Positions 12,887 to 32,813 of a DNA stretch of 32,979 nucleotides are shown here, piece after piece. Numbering within the stretch: position 1 is the first letter of the stretch; every line of letters starts with the position of its first letter. The DNA comes from Gammaproteobacteria bacterium. Lineage in GTDB: Bacteria > Pseudomonadota > Gammaproteobacteria > Chromatiales > Chromatiaceae. The stretch is from NCBI GenBank assembly GCA_024510845.1, contig JANEMA010000019.1, forward strand, positions 1-32,979, given 5' to 3'. The position numbers and the translations under genes are program-made. A model generated the notes under the pieces. The model ran no database searches. It was not told where the DNA came from and saw only the letters and a list, made by a program, of their open reading frames with translations.

Positions 12887-13711
12887 TCAGGGGCGACGCG
12901 GAAACTTGCGGAAATCGGGCGGGCGCTTCTCGAGGAAGGCGTCACGCCCTTCCTGGCCCTCGGCCGTCATGTAGAACAGGGCGGTGGCATTGCCCGCCAG
13001 TTCCTGGACACCCGCCAGGCCATCGGTATCCGCATTGAACCCGGCCTTCAACAGGCGCAGGGCGGTGGGCGAGTAACTGAGCATCTGCCGGCACCAGTCC
13101 AGGGTCTCCTCCTCGAGCCGCTCCAGGGGCACCACGGCGTTCACCAGCCCCATGGCCAGGGCCTCCTGTGCGTCGTACCGGCGGCAGAGGAACCAGATCT
13201 CCTTGGCCTTCTTCAGGCCCACGGTACGCGCAAGGATGCCCGCACCCAGGCCGGCGTCGAAGGAACCCACCCGCGGGCCGGTCTGCCCGAAGCGGGCGTT
13301 GTCGGCGGCGATGGTGAGATCACACACCAGGTGCAGTACATGCCCACCACCGATGGCATAGCCGGCAACCATCGCCACCACCGGCTTGGGCAGGCGGCGG
13401 ATCTGCATCTGCAGGTCGAGCACATTGAGGTGGTGCACCCCCTGCTCGTCCTTGTATCCACCGTCGTCGCCACGCACCTTCTGATCGCCGCCCGAGCAGA
13501 AAGCCTTGTCGCCGGCGCCGGTGAGCACGATGACGCCCATGTCCGGATCGTGATGCGCATGGGCGAAGGCATCCATGAGCTCGCTCACCGTGCGTGGCCG
13601 GAAGGCATTGCGCACCTCCGGCCGGTTGATGGTGATGCGGGCAATGCCTTCTTCGTGATGATCGTAGAGGATGTCCTGGTAGACCCGGTCGGGCACGGCT
13701 TGCCAATTCAT
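12887..13711 (-). CDS. menB: 1,4-dihydroxy-2-naphthoyl-CoA synthase
   Basis: MenB, a crotonase-superfamily enzyme, closes the second ring of the naphthoquinone from o-succinylbenzoyl-CoA. 274 residues, normal length. Recognised by [17 protein letters not shown], the oxyanion-hole segment [36 protein letters not shown], and [18 protein letters not shown], whose Asp is conserved in MenB. The carboxy end [12 protein letters not shown] is also MenB-typical (KKPDF.KFPR). A TATAAT box lies 36 bases upstream of the ATG, so menB and menA may have their own promoter separate from menD. Confidence 0.97.
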
Positions 13712-14030: not shown

Positions 14031-14188
14031 TTCAACTCCTCCCCCGCTTGCGGGGAAAGCTGGAAGGGGACAAACCACAAAGAAATCGAAGAACACAAAG
14101 ATCTCAGGCTGCCTCAAACCGAACCATCTCCACTTGCCGGGCCGAACCGTTCCGAATCGAATGTTCGCGGCGGAGACGCTGCTCCTAC
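14031..14188. repeat. Mosaic of dispersed-repeat-like sequences between menB and menD
   Basis: Three repeat-like pieces sit side by side. CCCCGC (14042-14047) and GCGGGG (14050-14055) form a tight hairpin inside a C-run/G-run element of a type scattered in many proteobacterial genomes. CCACAAAGAAATCGAAGAAC lies near 14076. At 14164-14188 the minus strand reads GTAGGAGCAGCG followed by TCTCCGCCGCGAA, resembling the GTAGGAGCGGCTT...AGCCGCGA family of REP-like sequences. The menD stop codon TAG falls inside the last element. Confidence 0.5.
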
Positions 14189-17213: not shown

Positions 17214-17681
17214 TCAGGATCTTGTGGTATCGAAACGATAGGGAACCTCGATGATACGCCCCGGAAGGTGCAGCAACACCCTCGCCTCCCAGCGCATGCG
17301 CTGACGGATGCACACCGAGAGCGAGGCCTCACCCTCGAACTGTCCCTCTCCCAAGGGGACCAGCCGGGGCCGGTTGTAGAGCATGCGCATATCGACCCCG
17401 GAGAAATCGACCTCGACCCGTTCTGCCGACACGCCTCGCAACCGGACGCGCAGGCGCAGGCGCTGTGCGACGGGGATCGGCCGGGGCAGGATCTCGGATA
17501 CCAGCTCGCCTCCACCCGGCAGCTCGCGCCGGCAGGCGCCCTGCTGGATATCGCAGGCATCCAGCGCCAGCACCACCCGTTCGGGCTCGGCCCGACAGCA
17601 CCATCCGTACCCGCCGATCACGACCAGCCCCAACAGGGCGAGGACCGCCAACCAGCGGCGATCGAAGCCCCGGCGCACCAT
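17214..17681 (-). CDS. Membrane-anchored periplasmic protein of unknown function at the nos-men junction
   Basis: A 155-residue protein with one N-terminal transmembrane segment (WLAVLALLGLVVIGGYGW) and a predicted periplasmic beta-rich domain. I do not know a named family. Features are two cysteines after the anchor (CC), a further pair around ALDACDIQQGAC, a central block VEVDFSGVDMRMLYNRPRL, and VCIRQRMRWEARVLLHLPG near the end. From memory it resembles small proteins encoded beside Sco-like copper chaperones and, loosely, FixH/YtkA-like domains; this is inference. Its ATG overlaps the nosY TGA by one base and menF follows after 3 bases, so it belongs to this operon. A role in copper delivery or NosZ maturation is a reasonable guess. 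Confidence 0.75.
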   Translation of the reverse strand: MVRRGFDRRWLAVLALLGLVVIGGYGWCCRAEPERVVLALDACDIQQGACRRELPGGGELVSEILPRPIPVAQRLRLRVRLRGVSAERVEVDFSGVDMRMLYNRPRLVPLGEGQFEGEASLSVCIRQRMRWEARVLLHLPGRIIEVPYRFDTTRS

Positions 17682-18508
17682 CAGGGCAGATCGCCCCGGC
17701 GAAACAGGCGATACCCCAGCCAGGCGAACAGGCTGCCCAGAGCGACCGGATAGGCAACCGCCCAGGCCAGATAGCCCTGTTCACCGACATGGTCGAGGAT
17801 CACGTAGGCGGCCGGCCCCAGCATCACCAGCTGCGGGTCGAACAGCAGCATGGCCCCGATACGAAACACCTGCAGGGGGTTGGCCAGCGCGATGGCGATC
17901 ACCGCCTCCGCTGGCATGCCCTCGCGGATCAGCACCGCCAGCAGGATCAGATCCAGGAACAGCAACAGCAGCAACCAGACCAGGAAGGCCGCGCCGGTGG
18001 CGATATCCGATGAACGGGCCAGGGTGGAGACGAACATGCCGATGCCCAGGAAACACCACGCGAGTGCGATCAGGAAAAGGGTATAGAACCCCACCTGCCC
18101 CCAGGGGATATCCACGCCCTTCAACATGGCCCAGACCACGGCACCCGCCAGGGCGAGCAGCACGGGCAGGAACACCACCAGGAAACGCCCCAGCAGCTTG
18201 CCCCAGAACCAGCTCGCCAGGCTGACCGGCAGGGACAGCATGTACTCGAAGATGCCGGCCTCGCGATCACCCGCCACCGAGCGCACCGTGGTGATGAGCA
18301 CGAACAGGGGCAGTACCGCCATGGTGATCTGCAGATAGGTCACCAGCAGGCGCGAAAGGCCGGTGAAGCCCATGACGCGGGATTCGGTGAGCCCCGAGAT
18401 GAACATCGCCACCACCAGCCCACCGAAGATCAGGCTGTAGATCAGGAACCAGCGCGAACGCAGGGACTCGCTGATGTCGGCACGCGCGGTACGCAGAAGA
18501 TGCTTCAT
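17681..18508 (-). CDS. nosY: Nitrous oxide reductase maturation ABC permease NosY
   Basis: Inner-membrane permease that with ATPase NosF and periplasmic NosD forms the complex needed to build the copper-sulfide centre of NosZ. 275 residues with about six hydrophobic segments. The N-terminal ARADISESLRSRWFLIYSLIFGGLV is the NosY/ABC-2 type start. SVAGDREAGIFEYMLSLPVSLASWFWGKLLGR is the conserved coupling region of this family. The start overlaps the nosL stop (ATGA) and the stop overlaps the next gene by one base. Gene order nosF-nosL-nosY differs from the nosF-nosY-nosL order of Pseudomonas. Confidence 0.93.
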   Translation of the reverse strand: MKHLLRTARADISESLRSRWFLIYSLIFGGLVVAMFISGLTESRVMGFTGLSRLLVTYLQITMAVLPLFVLITTVRSVAGDREAGIFEYMLSLPVSLASWFWGKLLGRFLVVFLPVLLALAGAVVWAMLKGVDIPWGQVGFYTLFLIALAWCFLGIGMFVSTLARSSDIATGAAFLVWLLLLLFLDLILLAVLIREGMPAEAVIAIALANPLQVFRIGAMLLFDPQLVMLGPAAYVILDHVGEQGYLAWAVAYPVALGSLFAWLGYRLFRRGDLP

Positions 18509-19008
18509 GAGCCCCCTCCGGTGCCAGACGCGGGAGACTCCCCGCCGCGGTGCACGTGAAAGGTCGCTTCGACCTCATCGAGGTGACGTACCGCGTCCGC
18601 GAAATCGAGCGCACCGGCCTCGGGCTCCGGCGTGGCCCCCAGTCCGTACCCCATGGGCGTGACCTTGCCCGGCACATACCAGGCCTTGCGCGCCTCCAGC
18701 CAGTGCCCGTTGCGGTAGTCGTTCACCCAGATCTCCACGCCGGGATCGTCGAGCCGCGCACGTTCCCTGAGCCAGATCACCGCGCAGCCGATGTCGTCGA
18801 ACTTGTACACACGGCTGCGGCCCTGTTCTTCCAGGCGGACCTGTGCCGCATAGTGCGGCTCGCTGATAGCCATGGCGCAGCGTGCGCAGACTTCGCGATC
18901 CCAGTGCACGTCCACCGGGCCGCTGTCCTTCTCGCCCGAGCAACCGGACAACAGCCAGGACAGGGACAGCAACCAGGCAATGGCAAGGATCCGTCGCTCA
19001 GGCCACAT
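18505..19008 (-). CDS. nosL: Nitrous oxide reductase accessory lipoprotein NosL
   Basis: Periplasmic Cu(I)-binding lipoprotein that supplies copper for NosZ assembly. 167 residues from ATG 19008. The signal peptide ends in a lipobox, WLLSGCS. Immediately after it come DREVCARCAMAISEPHYAAQV, the characteristic NosL metal segment with C-x2-C-x-M, and KFDDIGCAVIWL, conserved in the family. The YVPGKVTPMGYGLGA segment is also NosL-typical. The start overlaps the nosF end by 11 bases. It appears complete; the C-terminal glycine/serine tail is low complexity. Confidence 0.93.
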   Translation of the reverse strand: MWPERRILAIAWLLSLSWLLSGCSGEKDSGPVDVHWDREVCARCAMAISEPHYAAQVRLEEQGRSRVYKFDDIGCAVIWLRERARLDDPGVEIWVNDYRNGHWLEARKAWYVPGKVTPMGYGLGATPEPEAGALDFADAVRHLDEVEATFHVHRGGESPASGTGGGS

Positions 19009-19864
19009 GGTGTTCCGCCTCCTCGAGGTGAATGCCCTGCAGCAGGGCGGCATAGCGCGAAAGGGTGCCGAGAAAGCGCAGGCGATCCGCACCGGCCACC
19101 CGGCCCTCCCAGGAAAGCCCCTCGTCACGCGGGGCGAATCCCCAGCCACGGATGGCAGCGGCAAAGGCATCGCTGGGACGCGCCAGTTCGATCCGCGCGC
19201 GCAGCAGCGAGGTCATGGCCACGTCGTCGGCCACGTGATCGTCCAGCACGACCTGTCCCTGGTCCATCTCGACCACCCGGTTCACCAGGGTGGCCACCTC
19301 GTCCAGGCGATGGCTGGAGATGATCATCGCCGCCTGTGCCTTGCGTTCGGCCAGCAGGTGAAAGAAGTTGTGGCGCGCTTCGGGGTCCAGGTTGGCGGCC
19401 GGTTCGTCCAGTACCAGCAGGTCGCAATCACGTCCCAGGGCGATCGCGATCAGCAGCTTCTGTTTCATGCCGCCGGAGAGACGATCGAAGGGACGATGCC
19501 GGATCGCGCGTGCATCCAGCCCCAGGCGTTCCGCCACCCCGTACATGCGTTCGGGGTCACTGTCGCACACGCCGGCGGAAAAACCGATCAACTGCCCCAC
19601 CGGCATCTTCAGCGGCGGCGAGATCTGCGGCACGAAGCCGACTCGCCGCAGCACCTCGGTGCGGTGATCACGCGGTGACAGGCCGCCGATGGCCACCTTG
19701 CCTTCGCACCGGTACTCGCCCAGCACGCAGCGGATCAGGGTGGTCTTGCCCGCTCCGTTGGAACCGACGAAGGCGACACGATCACCCCGGGTGATGCGCA
19801 GGTCGATCCCCTTGAGCACCCGCTGGCGACGGAAACGCTTGCTGACTCCTCGCAACTCGATCAT
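18998..19864 (-). CDS. nosF: Nitrous oxide reductase maturation ABC ATPase NosF
   Basis: Cytoplasmic ATPase that powers NosDFY. 288 residues from ATG 19864. It begins MIELRGVSKRFRRQRVLKGI. Walker A is GSNGAGKTT near residue 36, the signature is LSGGMKQKLLIA, Walker B is LLVLDEPAANLD, and the switch histidine lies in ISSHRLDEVA. The length and C-terminal 80 residues fit NosF. The start overlaps the nosH stop (ATGA). Confidence 0.93.
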   Translation of the reverse strand: MIELRGVSKRFRRQRVLKGIDLRITRGDRVAFVGSNGAGKTTLIRCVLGEYRCEGKVAIGGLSPRDHRTEVLRRVGFVPQISPPLKMPVGQLIGFSAGVCDSDPERMYGVAERLGLDARAIRHRPFDRLSGGMKQKLLIAIALGRDCDLLVLDEPAANLDPEARHNFFHLLAERKAQAAMIISSHRLDEVATLVNRVVEMDQGQVVLDDHVADDVAMTSLLRARIELARPSDAFAAAIRGWGFAPRDEGLSWEGRVAGADRLRFLGTLSRYAALLQGIHLEEAEHHVA

Positions 19865-20868
19865 TGGCAGGTGCGGCTCCCGGATTCGTTCACAAGCAGG
19901 TCTCCCAGTCCCTTGTACTGGATACTCAGCGCGCCGGTCGGGCAGACATCGACGCAACGCAGGCAGCGCGTGCAATCGGCACCGATGTCCACGTCCATGG
20001 CGGCCGCCCGTCCCTTGATCACCGTATCCAGTACATGCGGCACCAGGCACACCTTGCGACATTCACCTTCGTGAAAGCAGTTGGGCAGGCTGTAATGCAC
20101 CGTGAAGGGCGACATGGCGCCAACGATGCCATAGGTCAGACCGATGGGGCAGGCATAACGGCACCAGGCGCGCCGCGAGAAGAAGATCTCGAACAGCAGC
20201 AGCAGGGCCACCCAGATCAGCGCAACACCGGGGCCATAGATCAGGGCCCGACTGAGGATGCCGGTGGGAGAAAGCGTTTCATAGACCGTGTAACCGGTTG
20301 CCAGGGCCAGTGCGGCGAACAACAGCCACAGCCAGGTCCGGGCGCGCCGGTCGAACTGGATGTCCCAGGCCAGGCCGCGGGCACGCAGCTCGAGATGCAG
20401 CATCTCCGTCCACTCGGCCAGCAGGTGATAGGGACAGACCCAGGAGCAGAAGCTACGCCCGCCCATCAGCCACCACATGATGAACACCGTGGTGGTGCCG
20501 ATGAGCAGGTTGATGACCACGTGCTTGAAAGCAAACATCACCTGCAGGGCGGAATTGAGATCGGCAAGGTGAAAACCGGCAAAACGCGAGGCGGTGAGCG
20601 CCCCTTCCAGCAGCTGGATATCGAAGTAGTACGACAGCACGAACAACAGATTGACCGAGATGAGAACGGCCCAGCGCAGGCGACGCTTCTTCTCCGGCGG
20701 CGGATGCTCGGCCTTGTGCGCCAGCTCGGCGCGAAGGGCGGCGATCCGCTCCTTGTCGCCGGCCTTCTGGCGATGCAGTTCACGCACATCGACCGGCATG
20801 TCCTTCTTGTCGACACGCCTGGGGGCGCCACCGAACAATACCCGCAACGACTCGATGACACGGCTCAT
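19861..20868 (-). CDS. nosH: NapH/NosH-like membrane iron-sulfur quinol dehydrogenase component
   Basis: Membrane protein thought, as in Wolinella-type clade II clusters, to oxidise menaquinol together with NosG and pass electrons toward periplasmic cytochromes. 335 residues. After a charged N-terminal stretch of about 65 residues, four or five hydrophobic segments follow, with two CxxxCP motifs at the membrane face (GRSFCSWVCP and AWCRYACP). A C-terminal ferredoxin part contains CTRCLRCVDVCPTGAL, with further cysteines in NCFHEGECRKVC. These features define NapH/NosH and related polyferredoxins. It is coupled by ATGA overlaps to nosG before it and nosF after it. The name NosH rests on context. 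Confidence 0.9.
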   Translation of the reverse strand: MSRVIESLRVLFGGAPRRVDKKDMPVDVRELHRQKAGDKERIAALRAELAHKAEHPPPEKKRRLRWAVLISVNLLFVLSYYFDIQLLEGALTASRFAGFHLADLNSALQVMFAFKHVVINLLIGTTTVFIMWWLMGGRSFCSWVCPYHLLAEWTEMLHLELRARGLAWDIQFDRRARTWLWLLFAALALATGYTVYETLSPTGILSRALIYGPGVALIWVALLLLFEIFFSRRAWCRYACPIGLTYGIVGAMSPFTVHYSLPNCFHEGECRKVCLVPHVLDTVIKGRAAAMDVDIGADCTRCLRCVDVCPTGALSIQYKGLGDLLVNESGSRTCQ

Positions 20869-21719
20869 GCTCGCATCCCCCGACTGCTCCGCCGGCTCTC
20901 CTCGCTGTCGATGACAATCACCGACGGCTCGGCCGGACAGATCATTTCACATACCCCGCAACCGACGCAGCCATCGAGAATCACCGGTTGCATGCGCTTC
21001 ACCCCGTCACCTCCCTCCAGCGTTCTCAACCCGATGGCATGGCGCGGGGGACATTCACCGGGCTGACGCTGCGCGACCCGACCCAGGCTCTCGCGGCGCT
21101 TCTCGTCCTCGCGGGCGCATTCCGCAATACCGATCTCGACGGGGCACTGGCGCACGCAGAGATCGCACAGCTCGAGGTCGTAAGGGTGCTCCGCGACGGG
21201 CTGGGGATGCCACCGGTCGATCTCGGCATAGCGCAACCGTCCCTTGAAATCCGGGCCCCGGGCCGTCCCCTCGACCCCCTTTCCCTGCACCGCCAGGCAA
21301 CGCGCCGGCGCCACCACCCTGGCGACCCCCATGTCCACCTGGGAAGGAAAGGCAATCTCGTGAATCAGGGCGCCAGTCGGACAGGCGAGCACGCATTGCA
21401 GGCCATCGCAGGAGAAATCGCAGGCCTGGTCACGGGCCTGGATGTGCGGCACGCCAACCCCGAAACCATCGTCCAGGTCGGAAAGCTCGATCGCCTCCAC
21501 GGGACAGACCTGCACGCATTGGCCGCACTTGATGCAGGCCGCAAGGAAGTCGTCTTCACACAAGGCACCCGGTGGCCGCAGACGCTGTTCCAGGCGCCCC
21601 GAGGTCACCGGCAGATAACCCAGCAAGGAGGCACCGGCGACACCAGCCGTCAACGCAAGGGAAGCGAGGAAACGACGGCGTGCACGCTGCGCGGGGGCAA
21701 GACGGGCTTTCTTGCTCAT
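20865..21719 (-). CDS. nosG: NapG/NosG-like periplasmic ferredoxin
   Basis: Periplasmic protein with four [4Fe-4S] binding sites, the expected partner of NosH in menaquinol oxidation. 284 residues. A twin-arginine-like signal RARRRFLASLALTAGVAGA suggests Tat export of the folded protein. Cluster motifs are CIKCGQCVQVCPVEAI near residue 62, the CDGLQCVLACPTGAL region near 108, CDLCVRQCPVEIGI near 187, and CVGCGVCEMICPAEPSV near 250. This fourfold pattern is that of NapG/NosG/MauM-type ferredoxins. It starts 4 bases after the nosD stop. Confidence 0.92.
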   Translation of the reverse strand: MSKKARLAPAQRARRRFLASLALTAGVAGASLLGYLPVTSGRLEQRLRPPGALCEDDFLAACIKCGQCVQVCPVEAIELSDLDDGFGVGVPHIQARDQACDFSCDGLQCVLACPTGALIHEIAFPSQVDMGVARVVAPARCLAVQGKGVEGTARGPDFKGRLRYAEIDRWHPQPVAEHPYDLELCDLCVRQCPVEIGIAECAREDEKRRESLGRVAQRQPGECPPRHAIGLRTLEGGDGVKRMQPVILDGCVGCGVCEMICPAEPSVIVIDSEESRRSSRGMRA

Positions 21720-21723
21720 GGCC

Positions 21724-23025
21724 CTATTCCTCCAGGCTCTGTTTCAGCAACTCGAAGGCATCCAGGGTCTTGGGCTCATCCTTCACCTCGACCTTGGCCA
21801 GCGTATGGAGATAGGGGCGCTCGTCACGCACCAGCAGTTTCGGCTCCGAGAAGGGCGCCAGGCGTTCGAGAAAATCGAGCACCTCGAGCAAGGGAGAGCC
21901 CTTGAAGAACTGCGCATAAGGACGGTCCTGCCACAGGCGATCGGCATAGGCATAGAGCTCGTATGGCGTGTCTCCCACGCCATCCTGGTTGCGGTCGAAG
22001 CCGACATGGTCGCTCCAGTAGTTTCCCTCCCATTGGTTTCGCCTGGCCGAACCGCCACCGCCGACGGCCACCTGGGTGAGATTGTCGACGAACTGGTTGC
22101 CCCGGAAGATGTTGCCTTTCCAGTCGTTGAGAAAACGCACGCCGATCCCGTTGTAGGCAATCAGGTTGCCCGAGAAACGGTTGGTGGTGTCCGGCTGGAA
22201 GGGGGAGACATCGACATACAGACCACTGGCGCAATAGAGGATCTCGTTGTTCTCGATGGTGAGATCCGATGTCTCCTTGAAGCCGATCCCGACGCCTGTC
22301 GGCCCGACGGCGTGGGCGATATGGTTGTTGCGCAACACCACCGAATCGCTGTACATGAGGAAGATCCCCATGGCGTTGTTCACGTAGTGGTTGTCCTCTA
22401 CCAGGTTGTAGCGCGAGTACATGAAGTGCAGGGAATAGCGGCTGTTGGATCCCCGATTGCGGGCGATCACGTTGTTGGCCGAGTACCAGACCACCATATC
22501 CCGCACATTGTCGGTGACGTTGTCCGTGATCTTGTTGTTGAAACTGTACCAGAGGCGCACGGAATCGCCTCGCTGCCCCAGGGAAAACTCCGTCTTGGAG
22601 CTGATGCGATTGCGACGCACGATATTGTTGTTCGATTGCTGAAGGTCGATACCGAACAGGCAGTCGTCGATGACGTTGTCCTTGATGACGTCGTAGTTGC
22701 CGCGTACCTGGACGCCAGCATCGATGTCGTTGGCCGATTCGCCAGAGTGGGTCAGGTGCAGGCTCTTGAGCGTGGCACCATCGGTATCCAGCACCACCAC
22801 CGAGCCCTTGCCACCCCCGTCGATGGTGACCTTGCCCTGGCCGTCGATCACCATGGGCCTGTCCACCACCACCGGCCCGGCATAGACACCCGGCGGAGGC
22901 ACCAGGGTCCCGCCTTCCGGGGTCTGATCGACCAGCTCCTGAAAAGCGGGCAAGGCGCCCGCCACCGCCGCTCCCTGAAGCAGCAACGCCATGCATGCCT
23001 GCCAAATCAGGCACGCCGACTTCAC
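21724..23025 (-). CDS. nosD: Nitrous oxide reductase maturation protein NosD
   Basis: Periplasmic right-handed beta-helix protein that with NosFY delivers sulfur or copper-sulfide components to NosZ. From GTG 23025 the protein has 433 residues, the usual length, and starts with a Sec signal (ACLIWQACMALLLQGAAVAGA). Repeated beta-helix rungs occur throughout: NDIDAGVQVRGNYDVIKDNVI, NNIVRRNRIS, NKITDNVTDN, NVIARNRGSN, YNLVEDNHYVNNAMGIF, VVLRNNHIAHA. The segment YWSDHVGFDRNQDGVGDTPYELYAYADRLWQ is a NosD signature. The GTG overlaps the nosB TGA (GTGA), so upstream in-frame ATGs inside nosB were rejected. Confidence 0.95.
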   Translation of the reverse strand: MKSACLIWQACMALLLQGAAVAGALPAFQELVDQTPEGGTLVPPPGVYAGPVVVDRPMVIDGQGKVTIDGGGKGSVVVLDTDGATLKSLHLTHSGESANDIDAGVQVRGNYDVIKDNVIDDCLFGIDLQQSNNNIVRRNRISSKTEFSLGQRGDSVRLWYSFNNKITDNVTDNVRDMVVWYSANNVIARNRGSNSRYSLHFMYSRYNLVEDNHYVNNAMGIFLMYSDSVVLRNNHIAHAVGPTGVGIGFKETSDLTIENNEILYCASGLYVDVSPFQPDTTNRFSGNLIAYNGIGVRFLNDWKGNIFRGNQFVDNLTQVAVGGGGSARRNQWEGNYWSDHVGFDRNQDGVGDTPYELYAYADRLWQDRPYAQFFKGSPLLEVLDFLERLAPFSEPKLLVRDERPYLHTLAKVEVKDEPKTLDAFELLKQSLEE

Positions 23026-24269
23026 TCGCCCTCTCCCTCCCAGAATGCCTTGCGGCGGATCAGGGCGGCCACGGCCAGCAATGCCGAACTGACGAGCATC
23101 AGGAAAAACCCCCAATAGGGATAGGAATGGGTGGTGAACTGCGCCACCTTGCCCTGCCCGAAGACGGTGGGCATGAAGGGCTTTACGGTAAAGGCCCCCA
23201 TGGCGTTGAGGCGATGGCCATACCACCACAGCCAGGCCGAATACTCGATGATGAAGAACAGCGGCAGTGCCATCGGGACGATGATCAGCAACCAGTACAC
23301 CAGGCCTCCGGTCTTGCGCGCCCCCCATACCAGGCACACCATCGCCGCGAGGATGGCCCAGAACACGGCATGCGCCACCGAGATCATGGTGCTGGCCATG
23401 GGGACGATCTCGGCAGGGTTGTTGAAATAGCGCCCCAGGCTCTTTTCGTAGTGCCAGCGCAGGACCTGCGCACCGCTTCCGTTCCAGGCCTCGCGCTCCC
23501 CCTCGGGCCGGCGCGCCTGATCGCGTCCAAAGGTACCGCGCAGCAGCGCGATATTGGCTTGCTTGGGATCGGCGGAGGCCATGTCATCATTCGCATCGAC
23601 TTCGACACCCAGGCCTTCGTCGGTGACCAGCTCGCTGCCCAGTTCCGCCAGACGCTTGGTCATCTCGTCTTCCGAGGAGCGAAATTTCTCGACCGACACC
23701 GCGTCCTCTGAAACGGCTCCCTTCAGCTTCTCCAGGACGCCCTGCTCCTTGTCCTCACCCCGTTGGGTATCCTGGTCCATGGACTTGACCAGCGCCTCGA
23801 CATGGCCGGCCGGCTGGTAACTCAAGCCACCTTCGCCATACCAGTAGAGGTACATCCAGATGGCGATCACCGCGAAACCGGCCGACATGATGGCCATGCG
23901 CAGTTTCGGCCGGGTACAGGCAAAACCGGCCAGCATCACTCCCAGCAAGGAAAGCAGAAAGGGAGAGAAGGCCTTCTCGATGACCCCACCCGCAGCGATG
24001 GGGTACATCCCCACGTAGTGGTTGATGGTGTCCATCTCGTGTACGCAATCGAGCGCTTCTTCCTCGGTGATCTCGCGCTTGGCGACCTTCTTGCAGCCGT
24101 TGAACACGCCGTTCATGTGGAAGTGAATGCGCACACCATCGGGGAAGGACTCGGCCGGATAGTTCGGCGCCGTCAACGACACCCACCAGATGGGGGAGAA
24201 ATAGATGACTCCCAGCAATACCAGGCTGGCGAGCATGAGCAGATTGGATATCAGGATACGCCTGGACAT
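23022..24269 (-). CDS. nosB: Clade II nos-cluster membrane protein NosB
   Basis: Integral membrane protein that accompanies clade II nosZ genes; its exact function is unknown. 415 residues from ATG 24269, preceded by GGTGA. The N-terminal helix is followed by FSPIWWVSLTAPNYP, the family hallmark, and a conserved periplasmic stretch ending DTINHYVGMYPIAAGG. Two helices lie at about 110-160, then a soluble stretch of roughly 130 residues rich in acidic residues (KSMDQDTQRGEDKEQGVL, SSEDEMTKRLAELGSELV), and then about four helices near the C-terminus with YWLLIIVPMALPLFFIIEYSAWLWWYGHRL. It follows the second dihaem cytochrome after about 155 bases and overlaps nosD. Confidence 0.85.
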   Translation of the reverse strand: MSRRILISNLLMLASLVLLGVIYFSPIWWVSLTAPNYPAESFPDGVRIHFHMNGVFNGCKKVAKREITEEEALDCVHEMDTINHYVGMYPIAAGGVIEKAFSPFLLSLLGVMLAGFACTRPKLRMAIMSAGFAVIAIWMYLYWYGEGGLSYQPAGHVEALVKSMDQDTQRGEDKEQGVLEKLKGAVSEDAVSVEKFRSSEDEMTKRLAELGSELVTDEGLGVEVDANDDMASADPKQANIALLRGTFGRDQARRPEGEREAWNGSGAQVLRWHYEKSLGRYFNNPAEIVPMASTMISVAHAVFWAILAAMVCLVWGARKTGGLVYWLLIIVPMALPLFFIIEYSAWLWWYGHRLNAMGAFTVKPFMPTVFGQGKVAQFTTHSYPYWGFFLMLVSSALLAVAALIRRKAFWEGEGE

Positions 24270-24343
24270 GTCGTCACCACTCGATGTGCATCGGACCGGA
24301 GCTGCCATCTCACCCAACGATGCGTGCGGTTTTTGTCGCCCCC

Positions 24344-24424: not shown

Positions 24425-25138
24425 TCAATCGTAGTCCGGGTTGGTCCAGTCCGGCGACGGCGCCAGGTCTTCCTTGGGCACCCGGATCCAGGACACGTAA
24501 TTGATCACCTTCTTCATCTGGTCGTTGGTAAAGGTCTTGATCTGCTTGACCATGTCGGGGTTGGCGTTGCGTCGCTTTCCGTCGCGGATCCACTGGAACT
24601 GGCGCACCATGTAGAGGTAATGCTGTCCCTGGATCCTGGGATAGAACTTCTCGGCATTGCCCTCGCCGTGCTCGCCATGGCACTTGACGCAATTGTCCTT
24701 GAACAGCTGCTCCCCCTCTTTCCATTCCGGCGTTCCCGGCTTCCAGGACCCCTTGCCATTGTCCGGGTTCATCGGCAGCCTGGAGATGTAGGCAGTTACA
24801 TCGGCCATCGCCTGCGGGCCACCGATGGACTCGGGCTTGGCAAAGGGATACATGGTGGGGTTGTCGCGGTTGCCCTCGCGAATGTCCGCGAGCTGCTTGA
24901 CCAGCACCGACTGGTGTTGTCCGGCAATCTGCGGGAAGGTGCCGTCCCTGGAGCCCCAGCCTTCGGTCAGGTGGCAGGCCGAGCACACCTCGAACACCTC
25001 GATCCCGTTCTCGTGGTCGGGCTTGAGCCTGAGCGCCTCGTCGCGCTCGCCGGCATGCTCCAGCCAGGCGAAGGCCTGACTGCTGAGCAGCAGGGTGGCC
25101 GCAACGCCGGCCATGGAAGTCACGATTCGAATTTTCAT
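24425..25138 (-). CDS. Dihaem cytochrome c (c4-like), nos-associated
   Basis: Periplasmic electron carrier of 237 residues with a Sec signal (IVTSMAGVAATLLLSSQAFA). There are two class I haem-binding motifs, CSACH at residues 52-56 and CVKCH at 150-154, each starting a cytochrome c domain. Methionine ligands are probably in DNPTMYPFAK and in the NPDM region. The two-domain layout resembles c4/NosC-type cytochromes. Between NosGH and NosZ it is a likely electron donor to the CuA site. An FNR/DNR-type promoter lies 72 or more bases upstream, so it leads the downstream nosBDGHFLY operon. Confidence 0.92.
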   Translation of the reverse strand: MKIRIVTSMAGVAATLLLSSQAFAWLEHAGERDEALRLKPDHENGIEVFEVCSACHLTEGWGSRDGTFPQIAGQHQSVLVKQLADIREGNRDNPTMYPFAKPESIGGPQAMADVTAYISRLPMNPDNGKGSWKPGTPEWKEGEQLFKDNCVKCHGEHGEGNAEKFYPRIQGQHYLYMVRQFQWIRDGKRRNANPDMVKQIKTFTNDQMKKVINYVSWIRVPKEDLAPSPDWTNPDYD

Positions 25139-25216: not shown

Positions 25217-25258
25217 ATGCTAGCACCACCCTACCGGGCATCCCTTGACTTTGCTCAA
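25217..25258 (-). promoter_or_regulatory. FNR/DNR-type class II promoter before the second dihaem cytochrome
   Basis: TTGACTTTGCTCAA at 25245-25258 matches the TTGA-N6-TCAA core of FNR/DNR/NnrR boxes. On the minus strand TAGCAT lies at 25222-25217, exactly where a -10 element belongs if the box is centred at -41.5, predicting a start near 25210 and a leader of about 72 bases. Confidence 0.6.
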
Positions 25259-25275: not shown

Positions 25276-25959
25276 TCAATCGTCCTGCCAGGACAGCCAT
25301 GCCAGGATGTCGGCAATGTCCTGGTCACTGTATTCGCGGAACAGCTCCGCATCTTCGGGATCGTCGTGCAGGCGCTCTCCCTTGCGGATGTTCTCGATCT
25401 GGCGCAGCAGGTAATCGCTGTGCTGGCCCGTGAGCATGGGCACGTGTTCTTCCCAGTCCCCCTCGCCATGGCGCCCGTGGCAACTGCCGCATTCCTTGCG
25501 ATACAACCTGCCTCCGCGCTCGGGGTCACCGGGATAATGGGAAACATTGAGTACCTTCTTGCTCTCCTCCAGACGCGCCAGGGCATCGAAGGCAGCCCCC
25601 GGTTCCAGCGGACTCATGTGCCGGGGAAGCTGGATGCTTGCCAGATAGGCAGTAATGGTGCGCACATCCTCCGGCGGGAGTTCGTGATCATTGGCATAGG
25701 GGATCATCGGTATGTTGATCCGCTTGCGCTCCTTGAACAGCTGGATCTCGCGCGCCAGGTAGGCGGGGGCCAGCCCCGCAAGGCGCGGGTATTCGCCATC
25801 ACGGGTCCCCTGGGCATGGATCCCGTGGCATCCGGCACAGACTTCCATGATCTCCTCGGCATCGTCCGGATCGAAATCCGGAATCCGATGCTCTCCGGCA
25901 TTGGCCATGCCGGATACCAGGACAAGGAAAATCGACACGAAGCGCATGAACTGGCTCAT
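25276..25959 (-). CDS. Dihaem cytochrome c (c4-like), nos-associated
   Basis: Second two-domain periplasmic cytochrome, 227 residues, with a Sec signal (MRFVSIFLVLVSGMANA). Haem motifs are CAGCH at residues 41-45 and CGSCH at 157-161; methionine ligand candidates include NIPMIPYAND and EHVPMLTG. It shares the domain plan of the 237-residue cytochrome but is clearly diverged, so this is an old duplication or two different carriers. An alternative start at the fifth codon (MRFV) would give a more usual signal peptide. It lies 79 bases after the monohaem gene and is probably read from the nosZ promoter. Confidence 0.9.
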   Translation of the reverse strand: MSQFMRFVSIFLVLVSGMANAGEHRIPDFDPDDAEEIMEVCAGCHGIHAQGTRDGEYPRLAGLAPAYLAREIQLFKERKRINIPMIPYANDHELPPEDVRTITAYLASIQLPRHMSPLEPGAAFDALARLEESKKVLNVSHYPGDPERGGRLYRKECGSCHGRHGEGDWEEHVPMLTGQHSDYLLRQIENIRKGERLHDDPEDAELFREYSDQDIADILAWLSWQDD

Positions 25960-26480: not shown

Positions 26481-28793
26481 TCACTTGATCTTCTTCGCGC
26501 CGTGTTCCTCGAGATAGGTCTTGGCCCTCAAACCGAGGTCCGCGGCCTTGACCTGATACTGCCACCACTGGTTGGCCCAGAGCATTGCATTGTTCCAGTC
26601 CTTCTTGGCGGCAGCCGCCTCGGCCTTGGCACGGGCATCCTTGGCGAAGCCAAGCTGGTCAGTGGCGTCTTCCACCAGCGCAACTACGGTCGGGAAGTCC
26701 TTGTAGTTGTGGCTGGTGATGAAGCCGACCACCTGGTTGATGACCTCCTGGGTCTCCAGGTTGGTCCTGACCTGCTTCTTGTAGTCCGCCTCGGTATAGG
26801 TCGTGCCGGCCTTCAGACCCACGGTCTTGGCCTTGTACCCCTTGGGCTGCACCAGCAGGTAACCCTGCATCTCCAGGTGGAGGGCCGAGCAGAACTCGGT
26901 GCAGTAGTAGGGATACACCCCGGGCTTGTCGGCCACGAAGCTGGCCGTCGCGGTCTTGCCGGGCTCCAGCGAGAGCTGCACGTTGTAGCCGAACATGGCG
27001 AAGCCGTGTACCTCGTCCTCTGCACGCTCGAGGTTGGTCAAGTGGATATGCACTTCGTCACCCTCGGTGACCTCGATGATCTCGGGCGTGATGTGCGAAC
27101 GAATGGTGGTGCCATAGACGTGCACAGTGCACTTGCCGTTGGCGTCACAGGTACGCTCCACCTTCTCGCGACCGGCACGGGTCTTCCACGGCGAACGCTT
27201 GTCCTCGCGGCTGTTCCATCCCGACTTGTAGCGGATCGCCGGCTTCAGCTTGTCGGCCTTGATGGCTACCACGTAGTGCGGCTCGCCCAGGGGCAGCGGC
27301 ATATCGTAGAGCAGCTGCATTTTCTTGCCGCCGATATCGATCAGCTGGTGGTTCTGCGGATGCAGCGGCCCCACCGGGTTGAAGCGGTCGATCGACAGCT
27401 TGTTCAGTGCCACCAGGTACTTGCCATCGGGCTTGACGCTGTCGCCCTCCATGGTCATGAGGTGACCCACGTTGTAGTGGATGGGCAGCTGATCCAGCAC
27501 CTTTCCCTCGCAGTAGTCCCACTTGGTGATCATGGAGTCCACGTAGATCGAGGTGTAGGCCACGCAGGGCTTGGAATCGAACTGCGTATGCAGCGGACCC
27601 AGGCCCACGTTCACCGACTTGTGCAACACGTCCTTGATGGCGATGATGGGGATGCCGTAGGAATCCTTGCCCTCGAACTTCCTGTTCTCGATGGCGTTCT
27701 GGACCTTCTTCCAGTCGTACACCCAGGTATGGCTGTCGAGCTTTCCGGAAATGACGATCTTGTCTCCAGTCGGCACCACATCGACACCGTGCGGGCTCTT
27801 CGGCTCGGGAACCAGATACAGCAGGCCGTTGGCCACGGCCTCCTTGATCCCGATCAGAGTCATGCCATTGACCTTCTTGCCGATCTTGCCGGCCTTCACC
27901 AGCTCCTCGGCCTTCTTCCAGTTGGTCAGGTGCAGAAAGTCGGTGTCCTTGGAAGAGCACCCGGCCTCGAAGGGGGGACGTCCCCGCTCGATACCGCCCA
28001 CGTAACGCTCGGAGCAGAAGGAGTTGGTGAAGCCCCAGCCGTAGGACGGTCCCTTGCCGGCATCCGACAGATCCTGGCTATAGGGCGGAAACTCGAAGGT
28101 GAACGACTGCCCGGGCTTGATGCGCCCTTCCCTGCGATCGAACTTCCAGTAGGTGAGACCACCCCGGTACTTTTCGTTGAACTCCTCGAGCGGAACGAAA
28201 CCACTGCCCTTGTAAGGGGCGGCATACTGGGTGGCATCCATCACGTACTCGGTGTTTGGCGTGACGAAGGCACCACCGTGCTCCGACCGGAACAGCGGGT
28301 TGACCACGATCTGCTTGGTCTCGAAGTCGTGCAGGTCGATCACCGCGACACGCGGATTGGCCTTGTCGTTGATGAACAGATACTGGCCGTCGTATTCACC
28401 CTTGGTCTCGGAGATGGCGGGATGGTGAGTATCCCCGTAGACGATGTCCTTGCCATTGATCCGGCCTTGCGCCAGTACGGCCTTGGACTCGTCATCGAAA
28501 CCGTAGCCCTGCCACGGCTCGGGAGTGAACACGCCGATGTACTTGAGAATGCGCATGGACGGAATGCCATACACGATCACCTGTCCGCTCTGGCCACCCG
28601 AACTGAAGGCCAGGTACTCGTCGCGTCCACCCGAAGGGGTGTAGGTCTTGGACGCCGCCAGGATGTCCTTCTCGGTCAGGCCACGCCGCTTCATGACGTC
28701 CTTCAACGTCTCCTGAGACCAGGCCTGGCCTCCGGCGAAGACCCCCATCGCAAGGGCTACGAGGGCGGCAAGCGTCTGCTTGCGTACTTTCAT
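26481..28793 (-). CDS. nosZ: Nitrous oxide reductase, clade II (Sec-dependent)
   Basis: Periplasmic enzyme that reduces N2O to N2 using the CuZ and CuA copper centres. 770 residues. The signal peptide (KVRKQTLAALVALAMGVFAGGQAWS) has no twin arginine, which marks clade II. CuZ ligand regions include GDTHHPAISE (His123, His124), SEHGG (His172), SPHGVDV and LGPLHTQFD. The CuA site is a C-terminal cupredoxin domain with EDEVHGFAMF and CTEFCSALHLEM (Cys631, Cys635, His639, Met642). About 110 residues continue after the CuA loop as a lysine/alanine-rich, predicted helical tail without any CxxCH, unlike the haem-bearing tail of Wolinella. GAGGAG precedes the start. An FNR/DNR-type box lies 153 bases upstream. 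Confidence 0.98.
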   Translation of the reverse strand: MKVRKQTLAALVALAMGVFAGGQAWSQETLKDVMKRRGLTEKDILAASKTYTPSGGRDEYLAFSSGGQSGQVIVYGIPSMRILKYIGVFTPEPWQGYGFDDESKAVLAQGRINGKDIVYGDTHHPAISETKGEYDGQYLFINDKANPRVAVIDLHDFETKQIVVNPLFRSEHGGAFVTPNTEYVMDATQYAAPYKGSGFVPLEEFNEKYRGGLTYWKFDRREGRIKPGQSFTFEFPPYSQDLSDAGKGPSYGWGFTNSFCSERYVGGIERGRPPFEAGCSSKDTDFLHLTNWKKAEELVKAGKIGKKVNGMTLIGIKEAVANGLLYLVPEPKSPHGVDVVPTGDKIVISGKLDSHTWVYDWKKVQNAIENRKFEGKDSYGIPIIAIKDVLHKSVNVGLGPLHTQFDSKPCVAYTSIYVDSMITKWDYCEGKVLDQLPIHYNVGHLMTMEGDSVKPDGKYLVALNKLSIDRFNPVGPLHPQNHQLIDIGGKKMQLLYDMPLPLGEPHYVVAIKADKLKPAIRYKSGWNSREDKRSPWKTRAGREKVERTCDANGKCTVHVYGTTIRSHITPEIIEVTEGDEVHIHLTNLERAEDEVHGFAMFGYNVQLSLEPGKTATASFVADKPGVYPYYCTEFCSALHLEMQGYLLVQPKGYKAKTVGLKAGTTYTEADYKKQVRTNLETQEVINQVVGFITSHNYKDFPTVVALVEDATDQLGFAKDARAKAEAAAAKKDWNNAMLWANQWWQYQVKAADLGLRAKTYLEEHGAKKIK

Positions 28794-28945
28794 GGGTTGC
28801 TCTCCTCAAGATTCCAAAGTGATGCCGAACCGCCAGAACAACGGCACGTGCCCACCGTTCTGTGGTTCAATCCGCACGGTCTGCCCGGACCCTGCGACCG
28901 TTGCAGCAGCACGAAACAGTGTGTGGTATTTGCCCTGCCCGTCAC

Positions 28946-28959
28946 TTGACATTTGTCAA
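28946..28959. promoter_or_regulatory. Perfect FNR/DNR/NnrR-type palindrome between nosZ and menC
   Basis: TTGACATTTGTCAA is a perfect inverted repeat matching the TTGAY-N4-RTCAA consensus of CRP/FNR-family regulators that respond to oxygen or nitric oxide. Centred at -41.5 for nosZ it predicts a transcript start near 28911 with a leader of about 118 bases; the expected -10 (CACACT) is poor, as in activator-dependent promoters. For menC the centre is only about 38 bases before the ATG, so class II activation would start the transcript at or just inside the coding region. Confidence 0.75.
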
Positions 28960-28989
28960 ACCTGATAAAGATGTCTCGCGCATAAAAAA

Positions 28990-30033
28990 ATGTCGCCTTC
29001 TTCTCGCCTCCGGCTTCGCCTGCACCTCTATCGCCTGGCCCTGCGCAACCCCTGGCCAGCCGCACATGCAATGCCGGGAGAACGACGTGGCTGGCTGCTG
29101 GAGCTGAAGCAGGGCGAGGATTGCGGATGGGGCGAATGCGCTCCCCTGCCGGCCGCCGGCACCGAGGATCCCGATGCCGCCGGACAGGCATTGGACGCAC
29201 TGCCACGCGAAAGCGATGCCGCGACACTGACGCGATGGGCAGACCGCCTGCTCACCGCGCAACCCACCGTGGCCTGCGCGCTGCACACCGCACTGCTCGA
29301 CCTGCAATGCCGGCAACAGCGACTGCCCATGCGCAAACGACTGCATGTGGAGGCGGGCGACCAGGTTCCGGTCAATGGCGTGGCCGGCGCACTCTCGGAG
29401 GCTGCGTTGCAACAGGTCCTCGACGCAGGTCACCGGCAGATCAAGTGCAAGCTTGGGCTGACCGCCTGGCAACAGGAAGCCCGCTTGCTCGAACGCCTCT
29501 GCTCATCCCTGCCGGGTGATGTGCTGTTGCGACTGGATGCCAACCGCGCCTGGTCCGCGGACGAGGCGCGACAGTTCCTGCATGCGATCGAGGGCCTGCC
29601 GGTCGAGTCACTGGAAGAGCCGTTGCGTGCCCCCCACCCCGAACGGCTCGCGGAACTGCAGGCCGGGACCTGCATCGAACTGGCCCTCGACGAATCCCTG
29701 CGTCTGCCCGAAGGGCCCCGGCTGTTGAGCGCCGCCCCGGTACGGCGTCTGATACTCAAGCCGATGGTGCACGGCGGTCCCGTAAAGACCCTGGCACTGG
29801 CGCGCCAGGCACAGGCCCGGGGCCTGCGGGTGGTGATAAGCTCCACCCTGGAATCCAGCATCGGCCTGCATGCGGCTGCCCAACTGGCCGCGGCACTCGG
29901 CCCGACCGATCCCGATCTGGCTCACGGTCTGGCCACCGCCGACTGGCTGGCCACGGACCTTGCGCCACCCCCTCGCCTGCAGGACGGTCGGCTCTGGCTC
30001 GATCCACGACCCGGCCTGGGAGTCACACCATGA
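28990..30033 (+). CDS. menC: o-Succinylbenzoate synthase
   Basis: MenC dehydrates SHCHC to o-succinylbenzoate. 347 residues, enolase superfamily. The N-terminal cap domain opens LRLHLYRLALRNPWPAAH and GECAPLP. In the barrel the catalytic lysines are in IKCKLG (near residue 155), the Mg2+ ligands are in RLDANRAW, EEPLRAP and LALDESLR, and the second catalytic Lys is in RLILKPMVHGG. All expected active-site residues are present. It diverges from nosZ and overlaps the thioesterase gene by the ATGA motif, forming a two-gene operon. The start is close to the FNR-type box. Confidence 0.94.
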   Translation: MSPSSRLRLRLHLYRLALRNPWPAAHAMPGERRGWLLELKQGEDCGWGECAPLPAAGTEDPDAAGQALDALPRESDAATLTRWADRLLTAQPTVACALHTALLDLQCRQQRLPMRKRLHVEAGDQVPVNGVAGALSEAALQQVLDAGHRQIKCKLGLTAWQQEARLLERLCSSLPGDVLLRLDANRAWSADEARQFLHAIEGLPVESLEEPLRAPHPERLAELQAGTCIELALDESLRLPEGPRLLSAAPVRRLILKPMVHGGPVKTLALARQAQARGLRVVISSTLESSIGLHAAAQLAAALGPTDPDLAHGLATADWLATDLAPPPRLQDGRLWLDPRPGLGVTP

Positions 30034-30443
30034 GTCATCGCCTCCACCGGTTTCGCGTCCCTTTCGACCAGCTCGACCCCGGCGGCATCCTGTTCTACGG
30101 TCACCTCTTCACACACGCCCATCATGCCTTCGAGACCCTGCTGCGCGAGATCGGCTGGGGGCTGGTGGAGCTGCTCGCCGAGGAACGCTATCGCCTGCCG
30201 GTGGTCCACGCCGAAGCCGACTACCACGCCCCCCTGCAACTCGACGCGCAGATCGACGTGGTGGTGGCCGTGCGCCACATCGGCGAACGCAGCTTTACCC
30301 TGGGGTATCGCTTTCTGCATGAAGAGGTACTCTGCGCCACCGTCGGCACGGCGCACGTACTCGTGGACGCCGGCAATAGCCGCCCCGCACCCTTGCCCGA
30401 GGCACTGCGACAGGCCCTGTCGCGCTATTGCGAGAGCAACTGA
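30030..30443 (+). CDS. menI: 1,4-dihydroxy-2-naphthoyl-CoA hydrolase (4HBT hotdog thioesterase)
   Basis: Hotdog-fold thioesterase of 137 residues, expected to release DHNA from DHNA-CoA between MenB and MenA. The 4HBT signature is visible: FRVPFDQLDPGGILFYGHLFTHAHHAFE, with the conserved Asp and the helix after it, and later VVVAVRHIGERSFTLGYRF. The menaquinone assignment rests on coupling to menC; other 4HBT enzymes look similar. Its last 19 bases overlap the 3' end of convergent menE. Confidence 0.8.
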   Translation: MSHRLHRFRVPFDQLDPGGILFYGHLFTHAHHAFETLLREIGWGLVELLAEERYRLPVVHAEADYHAPLQLDAQIDVVVAVRHIGERSFTLGYRFLHEEVLCATVGTAHVLVDAGNSRPAPLPEALRQALSRYCESN

Positions 30444-31708
30444 ACGTCCTCGCGCAGGCGGTGGCGCAACAGCTTGCCCAGGGCATTGCGAGGCAAGCAT
30501 TCGATAGCCAGGCAGGCCGACGGTCGGTGCACACCGGCAAGATGCTCGCGCGCCCAGTCCATCAGGACTGCGGGCGGGATCTCACCCCGGTAGCAGGCCA
30601 CCAGGCGTTCCCCCCACTCGCTGTCGGGCACGCCGACCACCGCAACCTCATCCACGCCAGGACAGGACTGCAACACACGCTCCACGGTAGCCGGGTGCAC
30701 CTTCTCGCCACCGCTGATGATGACCTCGTCGGCACGCCCCAGCACCCACAGGCGTCCCGCGGGGTCGATGCGCCCCAGGTCGCCGGTGGTATACCAACCC
30801 TCGTCGTCGAGCAGCTGGCGTACCCCCTCCGCTGCGATCACCCGTTGCGCGATGCTCGGTCCGCGCAGGCGAATGCGCCCATCCTCGGCGATGGCGACCT
30901 GCACGTGCGACAAGGGCTGCCCGGCCAGCCCGGGAGACCATTCGGCGGGGGGCGGATGACAGGTGGCCACCTGCGAGGCCGCCTCGGTGAGACCGTAGCT
31001 GGGGCAGACCGGCCAGCCGCGCGCCAGGGCCTCGTGGACCAGCGATGCCTCGGCGGGCGCGCCCCCGAGCAACACCACGCGCAAGGCCGGTGGCGGCACG
31101 AAGGCGGGATCTTCCCGCAGCAGCCGGTACAACTGGGTGGGCACCAGTGACAGGTGCGTGATGTCGCCCCGCGCCAGACGCGCAAACAGTACCGACGGGG
31201 CAAAGCGCGCCTGCACCACCACCCGCGCACCGGCCAGTCCACAGCGCACCACCACCGCCACCGCCGCCACATGATGCAAGGGCAGGCACAGCAACCAGGC
31301 GTCGCCTTGCTGCAGGCCCAGCAGGTGGTTCGAGGCCTCGGCCGCCGCCTCCAGGCGCGGACGGTCCAGCTCGACCAACCTTGGCTCACCGCGGGTCCCG
31401 CTGGTGGCGATCAGCAGCCGGAAACCGGCCACGGACGACACCAGCGATGCCGACACCGGCCGCGTACCGTCCTCCAGCAGCAGGCTGCCGGCGGCCGCGG
31501 TCCGCAGCAGGCGTTCCCGACGCGACGACGGCAGACGGGGATCGAGCGGCAGACAGGTCCAGCCCTCTGCCATGGCATGCAGCAGCAGCGACAACTTGCG
31601 CAGCGTGTCCTGCCCCGCATCGGCCAGCACCCGGGGGCGCACCGGTTGCAGCCCCCGCCACGCCAGGGGATCGACAGGTTCCCCCTGATACTCGATCTGC
31701 GGTCTCAT
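30425..31708 (-). CDS. menE: o-Succinylbenzoate--CoA ligase
   Basis: MenE activates o-succinylbenzoate as its CoA thioester through an adenylate. 427 residues from ATG 31708, preceded by a purine-rich GAGGGGGTGA. Acyl-adenylating motifs: LLIATSGTRGEPRLVELDR (P-loop-like A3), PSYGLTEAASQ (A5), EGWYTTGDLGRID (A7), and the catalytic lysine region LPRNALGKLLRHRLRE (A10). Its length is slightly short of the average MenE but all motifs are present. It converges on menI. Upstream lies the degraded restriction-modification remnant. Confidence 0.93.
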   Translation of the reverse strand: MRPQIEYQGEPVDPLAWRGLQPVRPRVLADAGQDTLRKLSLLLHAMAEGWTCLPLDPRLPSSRRERLLRTAAAGSLLLEDGTRPVSASLVSSVAGFRLLIATSGTRGEPRLVELDRPRLEAAAEASNHLLGLQQGDAWLLCLPLHHVAAVAVVVRCGLAGARVVVQARFAPSVLFARLARGDITHLSLVPTQLYRLLREDPAFVPPPALRVVLLGGAPAEASLVHEALARGWPVCPSYGLTEAASQVATCHPPPAEWSPGLAGQPLSHVQVAIAEDGRIRLRGPSIAQRVIAAEGVRQLLDDEGWYTTGDLGRIDPAGRLWVLGRADEVIISGGEKVHPATVERVLQSCPGVDEVAVVGVPDSEWGERLVACYRGEIPPAVLMDWAREHLAGVHRPSACLAIECLPRNALGKLLRHRLREDVQLLSQ

Positions 31709-31709
31709 T

Positions 31710-32813
31710 TCACCCCCTCGCAGGAGATTCGTAGTGCCCGCCATCCGCACTCGTGACCTCGGGCTCGCTCAGGCCCAGGGCCCCTTCGGCGCTGGGAGTG
31801 ACAGTCACGCTGACCACACCCTCGTCCTTGTCCGGCGCCTCCAGGATCACCTGTTTCAGTCGAATGGGCGAATCACCCCGGTTGGCCTCGTCGATGATCT
31901 CCTGAAAGCGGTCATGAGCCACCATGTTGAGGCGGTCCACCGCGCTCACGCCGGTACGCTTGCCATAGGGCAAACGCAGGCCACGCCCGATGGACTGCTC
32001 GATCAGAGTGCGGGCCAGCGGGTAATCCACCACCACGTTCTTGAACGACACCGGCCCGCGACTGCTTTCCACAAAGGGCGTGGCGGTGAGTTCCAGGCCA
32101 AACAACGGCCTGAGTTCATTGATGGCGCGCACCCCCGCGCTGGCGCGGTAGCGGTGCGACTCGTCCATCAGCAATACCAGATCGGGCAGCTCCGCCAGGT
32201 CATTGAAATAACTGTCCCCCAGGTATTCAGAGAGCCGGCAATGACAATGACCCTTTTCTCCGTCATTCATCCCCCCCAAACAGCGCCGTCTGACCGGGGC
32301 TGATTTTTTCTTGCGGGTCTTTTTCCCGGGCGCTGCCTGTGGTGGCTCGGGCTCCAGCATGGGCAGATTCTGCACGTTGAGGCTGTAGTCATCGTGGCCC
32401 CACTCGCAGCGCGACAGCACCACCCTGGGGATCTTCTTGAGAGTCAGGTTCGGCCAGCGCCCGGCGGCCCTGGCGGCGCTGATGCCGCGGAAAGCGCTGC
32501 ACAGCACCAGCAGGCTGCGGCCCTCGCCCACCTCCTCGGACAGCGCCTGCAACTGGACCACCGACAGGTTTTGCGTGGTCACACAGATGAAATCGGTCTC
32601 GGTGGAATGGCCGTGCTGCCACCAGACGGTTTCCGACGGTGCGTAGGTGAAGCCCTCCAGCTTGCACAGCACTTAGGCCAGCATGGCGGCGTTGTATTCC
32701 TGGTTGATGACCCAGTTACCCCACTTGTCCTTCTCCAGCAGCGAGGGCGCCAGGCGGTAATAGCGGAACCCGCCACCGCCTTTCCAGCCCACCGCCTTGG
32801 TTTGGATCATCAT
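31710..32813 (-). pseudogene. Fused and deleted remnant of a type III-like restriction-modification system (Mod/Res)
   Basis: The first part matches the C-terminal half of Mod-type adenine methyltransferases: AVGWKGGGGFRYYRLAPSLL, then KDKWGNWVINQEYNAAMLA, an in-frame TAA at 32675-32673, then LCKLEGFTYAPSETVWWQHG, STETDFICVTTQNLS and VVLSRCEWGHDDYS. After a lysine-rich junction it continues as a helicase (Res): LPDLVLLMDESHRYRA with a DESH box and LFGLELTATPF, then jumps over missing sequence to LIEQSIGRGLRLPYGKRTG and AVDRLNMVAHDRFQEIIDEA. The 5' half of Mod, the Mod-Res boundary, the middle of Res and its nuclease end are missing, so the system is dead. Confidence 0.85.

Follow-up and report, generated by a model that had tools for sequence, protein, structure and literature searches.

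In the DNR regulon described by Rodionov et al. (2005, PMC1274295), a motif resembling the FNR box, CTTGATnnnnATCAAG, is located upstream of nirS, norB and nosZ, and the same paper, the text of which makes no mention of menaquinone, lists TTGACnnnnGTCAA as the motif of HcpR. For Nitrosophilus labii, CRP/FNR-type sites of the form TTGA-N6-TCAA have been proposed before clade II nosZ and before nosB, while menaquinone synthesis was unresponsive to N2O (PMC11539149). NosC1 and NosC2 of Wolinella succinogenes are predicted to pass electrons from menaquinol to NosZ (PMC11102522), and it is the nos cluster of this organism (Simon 2004; Hein 2017, cited in PMC11102522) that the locus described here resembles in its combination of nosZ with genes of the NosB, D, G, H, C1, C2, F, Y and L types. 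Control of nos genes by FNR/DNR-type regulators is already known; the new part is the fusion of nos with men genes for menaquinone synthesis. A search of the open literature, incomplete in its coverage, yielded no paper that joins nosZ, menC and menaquinone biosynthesis.

The stretch of DNA that was analyzed (the window) comprises 32,979 nucleotides of contig JANEMA010000019.1 from a gammaproteobacterium of the family Chromatiaceae (assembly GCA_024510845.1, here G000). Its minus strand carries a clade II nos cluster, recognizable by the gene for a Sec-type nitrous-oxide reductase, nosZ (26481–28793; TIGR04246, 856 bits, cut-off 625), and by genes of the NosG/NosH type along with those for NosD, NosF, NosY and NosL. 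On the same strand, nosZ is followed by three cytochrome c genes in conserved order (PF00034; 26039–26476, nosC1-like 25276–25959 and nosC2-like 24425–25138), a nosB-like gene assigned by position only (23022–24308), nosD (21724–23025; PF05048), nosG (20865–21719) and nosH (19861–20868; both by NapG/NapH-type models), nosF (18998–19864; ABC models), nosL (18505–19008; PF05573), nosY (17681–18508; ABC models) and orf155 (17214–17681), a gene for a 155-residue product to which no function was assigned. The run then continues into menF (15831–17210; TIGR00543), menD (14185–15834; TIGR00173), menB (12887–13711; TIGR01929) and menA (11980–12885, the conserved part of a longer frame; TIGR00751), all of which score above the cut-offs of their models. 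Between nosD and menD, successive genes either overlap or leave no more than a few bases free, and a gap of 473 bp separates menD from menB. Matches to intrinsic terminators between nosZ and menD were fewer than in shuffled sequences and are hence uninformative. Divergently from nosZ, the plus strand encodes o-succinylbenzoate synthase, menC (28990–30033; TIGR01927, 169.6 bits, cut-off 130.55), and, adjoining it in a position kept in relatives, a hotdog thioesterase (30030–30443; PF13279) that is possibly MenI, its substrate being deduced. Convergent with menC is a menE-like gene for o-succinylbenzoate-CoA ligase (30425–31750, minus strand; TIGR01923, 272.5 bits, below the cut-off of 330). A menG/ubiE gene resides elsewhere in the genome, and no menH was seen among the genes of this superlocus. 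To our knowledge, the nos cluster of W. succinogenes contains no men genes. Men genes within the nos run likewise set the window apart from N. labii (PMC11539149).

The complete frame that contains menA (11530–12885) has a length of 451 amino acids, of which only about the first 302 match MenA. The remainder matches pieces of an 890-residue molybdopterin-type reductase whose gene is intact in G003, where it is situated between menA and mobB, and an internal deletion therefore seems to have fused menA to reductase remnants.

The full nos-men order is present in seven genomes (G000, G003, G056, G057, G058, G060 and G064), and the contigs of G062 and G063 (L062/L063-type) stop short of menF. Elsewhere in the family, the men genes form a run of their own, menF-D-B-A-C-menI with menE convergent, which is found beside nos in L187 without being fused to it, so that the nos-men fusion looks derived. 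These separate runs are in keeping with the idea that only nosZ is controlled from the sites described below and that the men neighborhood is historical, with menF to menA having their own promoter and no regulatory link to nos. In agreement with this idea, a perfect FNR-type box before menF is absent from those runs, except in L187, where it is about 590–670 bp upstream. In G057, moreover, about 3.8 kb of opposite-strand genes (GGDEF/EAL and solute-binding-protein genes) intervene between orf155 and menF, and menF is not preceded by an FNR-type box, from which it follows that nos-men co-transcription is broken in this genome. Co-occurrence of clade II nosZ and menC among 34 genomes of the family does not exceed expectation (12 with both, 11 with menC only, 5 with nosZ only, 6 with neither), which not only fits a purely historical neighborhood but also indicates that N2O reduction needs no menaquinone in general. 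However, menF starts only 3 bp after orf155 in the window and closely after it, with short gaps, in five further genomes, and the arrangement has been retained across a NosZ clade despite MenF and MenD protein identities down to about 45–50%. On balance, we regard the absence of any regulatory link as unlikely.

The 196-bp intergenic region between the start codons of nosZ (ATG at 28793, minus strand) and menC (ATG at 28990, plus strand) holds the sequence TTGACATTTGTCAA at 28946–28959 (centre 28952.5), which reads TTGACAAATGTCAA on the nosZ strand and matches the consensus TTGAYnnnnRTCAA (TTGAT/C-N4-A/GTCAA) exactly. The probability of finding any such match by chance in 196 bp of this composition is 0.0014, and TTGACATTTGTCAA is the sole instance of TTGACnnnnGTCAA without mismatch in the window, with two in the whole 1.87-Mb genome. 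A scan for NosZ provided 80 loci and searches with menC three more; 13 of them have menC divergent from nosZ and belong to one NosZ clade (support 0.99), whose member L043 is without menC. All 13 contain an exact box, centred at −157 to −162 from the nosZ ATG. An FNR/DNR-type box between the two divergent genes, as proposed in an earlier note made from the sequence of the window, is thus present and conserved. Its description as perfectly symmetrical applies to 12 of 14 positions, namely the fully complementary six-base arms TTGACA and TGTCAA, and does not apply to the central TT (28952–28953); asymmetric versions such as TTGATTTATGTCAA occur in relatives. The palindrome is predicted to be a genuine oxygen/NO-type switch that serves as the operator of the N2O-reductase promoter, P1.

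In class II FNR promoters of Escherichia coli, the box is centred at −41.5. When the box centre is set to this position, the −10-like hexamer CACACT (28918–28923 in the window, minus strand) falls at exactly −12 to −7 in all 13 loci, and the predicted start of P1 is at about 28911. An offset profile that covered 46 non-redundant nosZ loci without menC in addition to the 13 nosZ-menC loci led to the same result: at the class II offset, A at −11 together with T at −7 is seen in 76% of the 46, compared with only 13% and 15% when the offset is shifted by one base in either direction (z 5.2 over offsets). An exact box, usually at −75 to −170 from the ATG, is likewise a feature of most nosZ loci that lack menC. 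The class II geometry that had been considered feasible for nosZ is therefore corroborated, the comparative evidence for such a promoter with a start near 28911 is strong, and the box evidently belongs to nosZ. A CRP/FNR-type site before clade II nosZ is shared with N. labii, but in that organism the predicted start is overlapped by the sites near nosZ, whereas the box in the window is at class II distance (PMC11539149).

A second promoter of this type, P2, is predicted before nosC2 (25217–25258, minus strand). It consists of the box TTGAGCAAAGTCAA (25258–25245), which has one mismatch to TTGAYnnnnRTCAA, and the −10 hexamer TAGCAT (25222–25217), with a predicted start at about 25210. A box upstream of nosC2 and a TAnnAT hexamer in the same class II register were present in 9/9 nos-men loci examined. 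FNR-type sites are therefore at least two, not one, and nosC2 to menA may be driven by P2 plus read-through from nosZ. The proposal that a single site ties quinone synthesis to N2O respiration accordingly does not strictly hold as far as the single site is concerned, while the tie itself retains its plausibility, chiefly through the location of menF, menD, menB and menA downstream of nos on the same strand, a route that the earlier note had not considered.

The box, the −10 register, their conservation and the gene order are established by comparison of sequences. On this basis, we consider it probable that a class II promoter P1 leads into nosZ and P2 into nosC2 and the genes beyond it, that the men genes of the run are raised together with nos, and that menC is not activated. 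A dimer of Fnr and/or a Dnr-like protein would bind the box at −41.5 and contact RNA polymerase, and under anoxia and/or in the presence of NO, nosZ would be transcribed from about 28911; P2, which has the same build, would drive nosC2 onwards from about 25210. As menF-menD and then menB-menA come after nosY-orf155, with gaps that are minimal or absent as far as menD, P1 and P2 probably raise menaquinone synthesis along with N2O reductase and the NosGH electron-transfer module. We infer regulator binding, the transcription start, co-transcription through menA and the use of menaquinol by NosGH, and a reductase and the carrier that supplies it with electrons would then probably be switched on together. 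The joint loss of nos, menF and menD in G006 (see below) and the predicted role of NosC1/NosC2 in Wolinella favor this reading; the 473-bp gap before menB, the interruption in G057, the lack of nosZ-menC co-occurrence in the family and the unresponsive menaquinone synthesis of N. labii (PMC11539149) speak against it.

The situation is different on the menC side. The register with A at −11 and T at −7 is encountered in 8% of the 13 loci towards menC versus 100% towards nosZ. As the earlier note had pointed out, the box is very near the menC start codon, which in the window is 30 nt past its end, but this distance is unconserved and amounts to only about 7–8 nt in L033/L034. Class II activation of menC is therefore unsupported, since there is no register in this direction and the ATG is about 7 nt past the box in some relatives. 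Class I activation was considered as well, and both modes were rejected in view of the geometry and the offset profile. The switch is apparently not built to activate menC.

An operator common to both genes, activating each of them and giving rise to a leaderless menC message starting at about 28994, would nevertheless be in line with two observations. First, the half-site facing menC is TTGAC, never TTGAT, in 13/13 loci, while the opposite half varies (TTGAT in 8, TTGAC in 5) and nosZ loci that lack menC have either G (24) or A (35) at the equivalent base; second, the menC ATG is 49–52 nt from the box start in L036–L038, L041 and L042 and thus near a class II start. However, the 13 loci are related and fall into one NosZ clade, so that the constancy of TTGAC does not amount to 13 separate cases, and although the invariant half favors some constraint from the menC side, an asymmetric preference of the regulator would fit equally well. 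Furthermore, a conserved −10 towards menC is missing, the class II start in the window would be 4 nt into the menC gene, and in L033/L034 it would also be inside the gene (34–35 nt past the box). Where menC does not adjoin nosZ, no perfect box is present within 500 bp upstream of it. The notion of a two-way activator, raised in the earlier note, is not supported by these findings and appears very improbable to us. Two further candidates were rejected: a sigma-70 promoter for menC that uses TTGACA of the box as its −35 element has no conserved −10 at a distance of 15–19 nt, and a box ancestral to the men genes is at odds with the lack of any perfect box in the 500 bp before the menC genes not adjacent to nosZ.

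For the bound regulator, repression of menC or no effect on it is possible. Repression or a roadblock of menC during activation of nosZ would be favored by the location of the box between any upstream menC start and the ATG, and in L033/L034 the box spans about −9 to −22 before the ATG. On the other hand, repression would cut menC just as menF, menD, menB and menA rise, and no menC promoter is recognizable that could be compared with the box for overlap, which makes this arrangement doubtful in our eyes. With P1 and P2 as the activated promoters, menC-menI would probably be transcribed from a weak or constitutive start of their own, the bound regulator being neutral or negative there. A five-codon frame (ATG TCT CGC GCA TAA, 28971–28985) is present between the box and menC, and in L033/L034 menC apparently begins at the ATG that corresponds to that of this frame.

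As for the regulator, the genome of the window encodes only two proteins with an HTH_Crp_2 domain, Fnr and a Dnr-like protein. Fnr (L001; NF008365, 291.9 bits, cut-off 228) has the N-terminal cysteine motif CANCSLATLC, and Fnr-type relatives with 59–94% identity exist in all seven other genomes searched. The gene for the Dnr-like protein is next to norC and a cytochrome d1 gene. The protein matched no curated Dnr model; its matches reach 90% identity in G003 and 52–54% in G056/G057, the best ones in loci from G058, G060 and G064 only 24–32%, and no Dnr-like protein was found in G006. As Fnr-type proteins occur in all seven and clear Dnr-like proteins only in some, Fnr is the likelier common regulator. 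HcpR was rejected as a candidate because neither of the two HTH_Crp_2 proteins, the only ones in the genome, matched an HcpR model in a search not specific to HcpR. Throughout the genome, TTGAYnnnnRTCAA is matched exactly at nine sites; if one mismatch is allowed, the number of sites is 151, versus 40 for the reversed control pattern. Apart from the box at nosZ, exact boxes precede norC, a nirS-type (cytochrome d1) gene (two boxes), ccoN beside fnr and a gene for a NapD-domain protein; two are inside coding sequences (ilvH-type and response-regulator genes) and one further site is without an assigned gene. Such boxes at nosZ, norC, the nirS-type gene and nap recall the DNR regulon (PMC1274295), from which the window differs in that its box is the TTGACnnnnGTCAA version and the run downstream includes men genes.

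The fate of the superlocus can be followed in the genus of the window, in which presence of nosZ and menC agrees in seven genomes (both present in G000, G001, G003, G004 and G005, both absent in G002 and G007). The eighth, the closed 2.6-Mb genome G006, keeps the box, menC, menI, menE, menB and menA, yet of nosZ only about 131 codons are left; next come an IS3-like transposase and menB. The transposase frame (L123, 14801–15709) marks the edge of the deletion, and no MenD-level match exists elsewhere in this genome. One deletion beside an insertion sequence has taken nearly all nos genes together with menF and menD. Tentatively, and with less confidence than we place in the promoters themselves, we envisage that in a small lineage menaquinone synthesis has become fused with the N2O-reductase operon under two FNR/DNR-type promoters, forming one module for the enzyme and the quinone of its electron supply that could be lost whole as in G006. 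The hosts may otherwise run on ubiquinone. A finding that counts against the main reading is that the cultured relative Thiolapillus brandeum, a strain not known to carry the superlocus, has Q-8 as its major quinone when grown on nitrate (PMC4136832). If true, it would be new that quinone supply is switched on with one particular terminal reductase via gene order. The superlocus would explain a possible one-step loss of both N2O reduction and menaquinone synthesis, and it offers a testable case in which an electron carrier is matched to an enzyme that consumes N2O, the hosts being sulfur-oxidizing bacteria of which some are related to vent-snail symbionts.

A second, 16-bp palindrome resembling TGTGTGAAATCACACA was noticed near nosZ promoters (L033–L042 and others, e.g., L071). 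With up to three mismatches, it is present in 37 of 80 nosZ upstream regions, compared with 0.15 expected from shuffled sequences, and 44 such sites occur in the 905 kb of these nosZ loci. Relative to the predicted start, the palindromes are centred near −82.5, −71.5 and −60.5, at −18.5, or at about +0.5 to +9.5; at 28920–28937 of the window the palindrome is not kept, having been lost in the window's own sub-clade. Copies precede the genes for PCu(A)C copper chaperones in L244 and L259, L249 is a locus with a further copy, and tandem pairs 21–22 bp apart are located upstream of genes for TonB-dependent receptors (L252 and L263), which suggests a copper-related operator. In a wider check of 30 PCu(A)C loci, the palindrome was found in three only, so that the copper link is borne out only partly. 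In two genomes of the window's genus, G004 (C220) and G001 (C332), a PCu(A)C copper-chaperone gene replaces menC as the divergent neighbor of nosZ.
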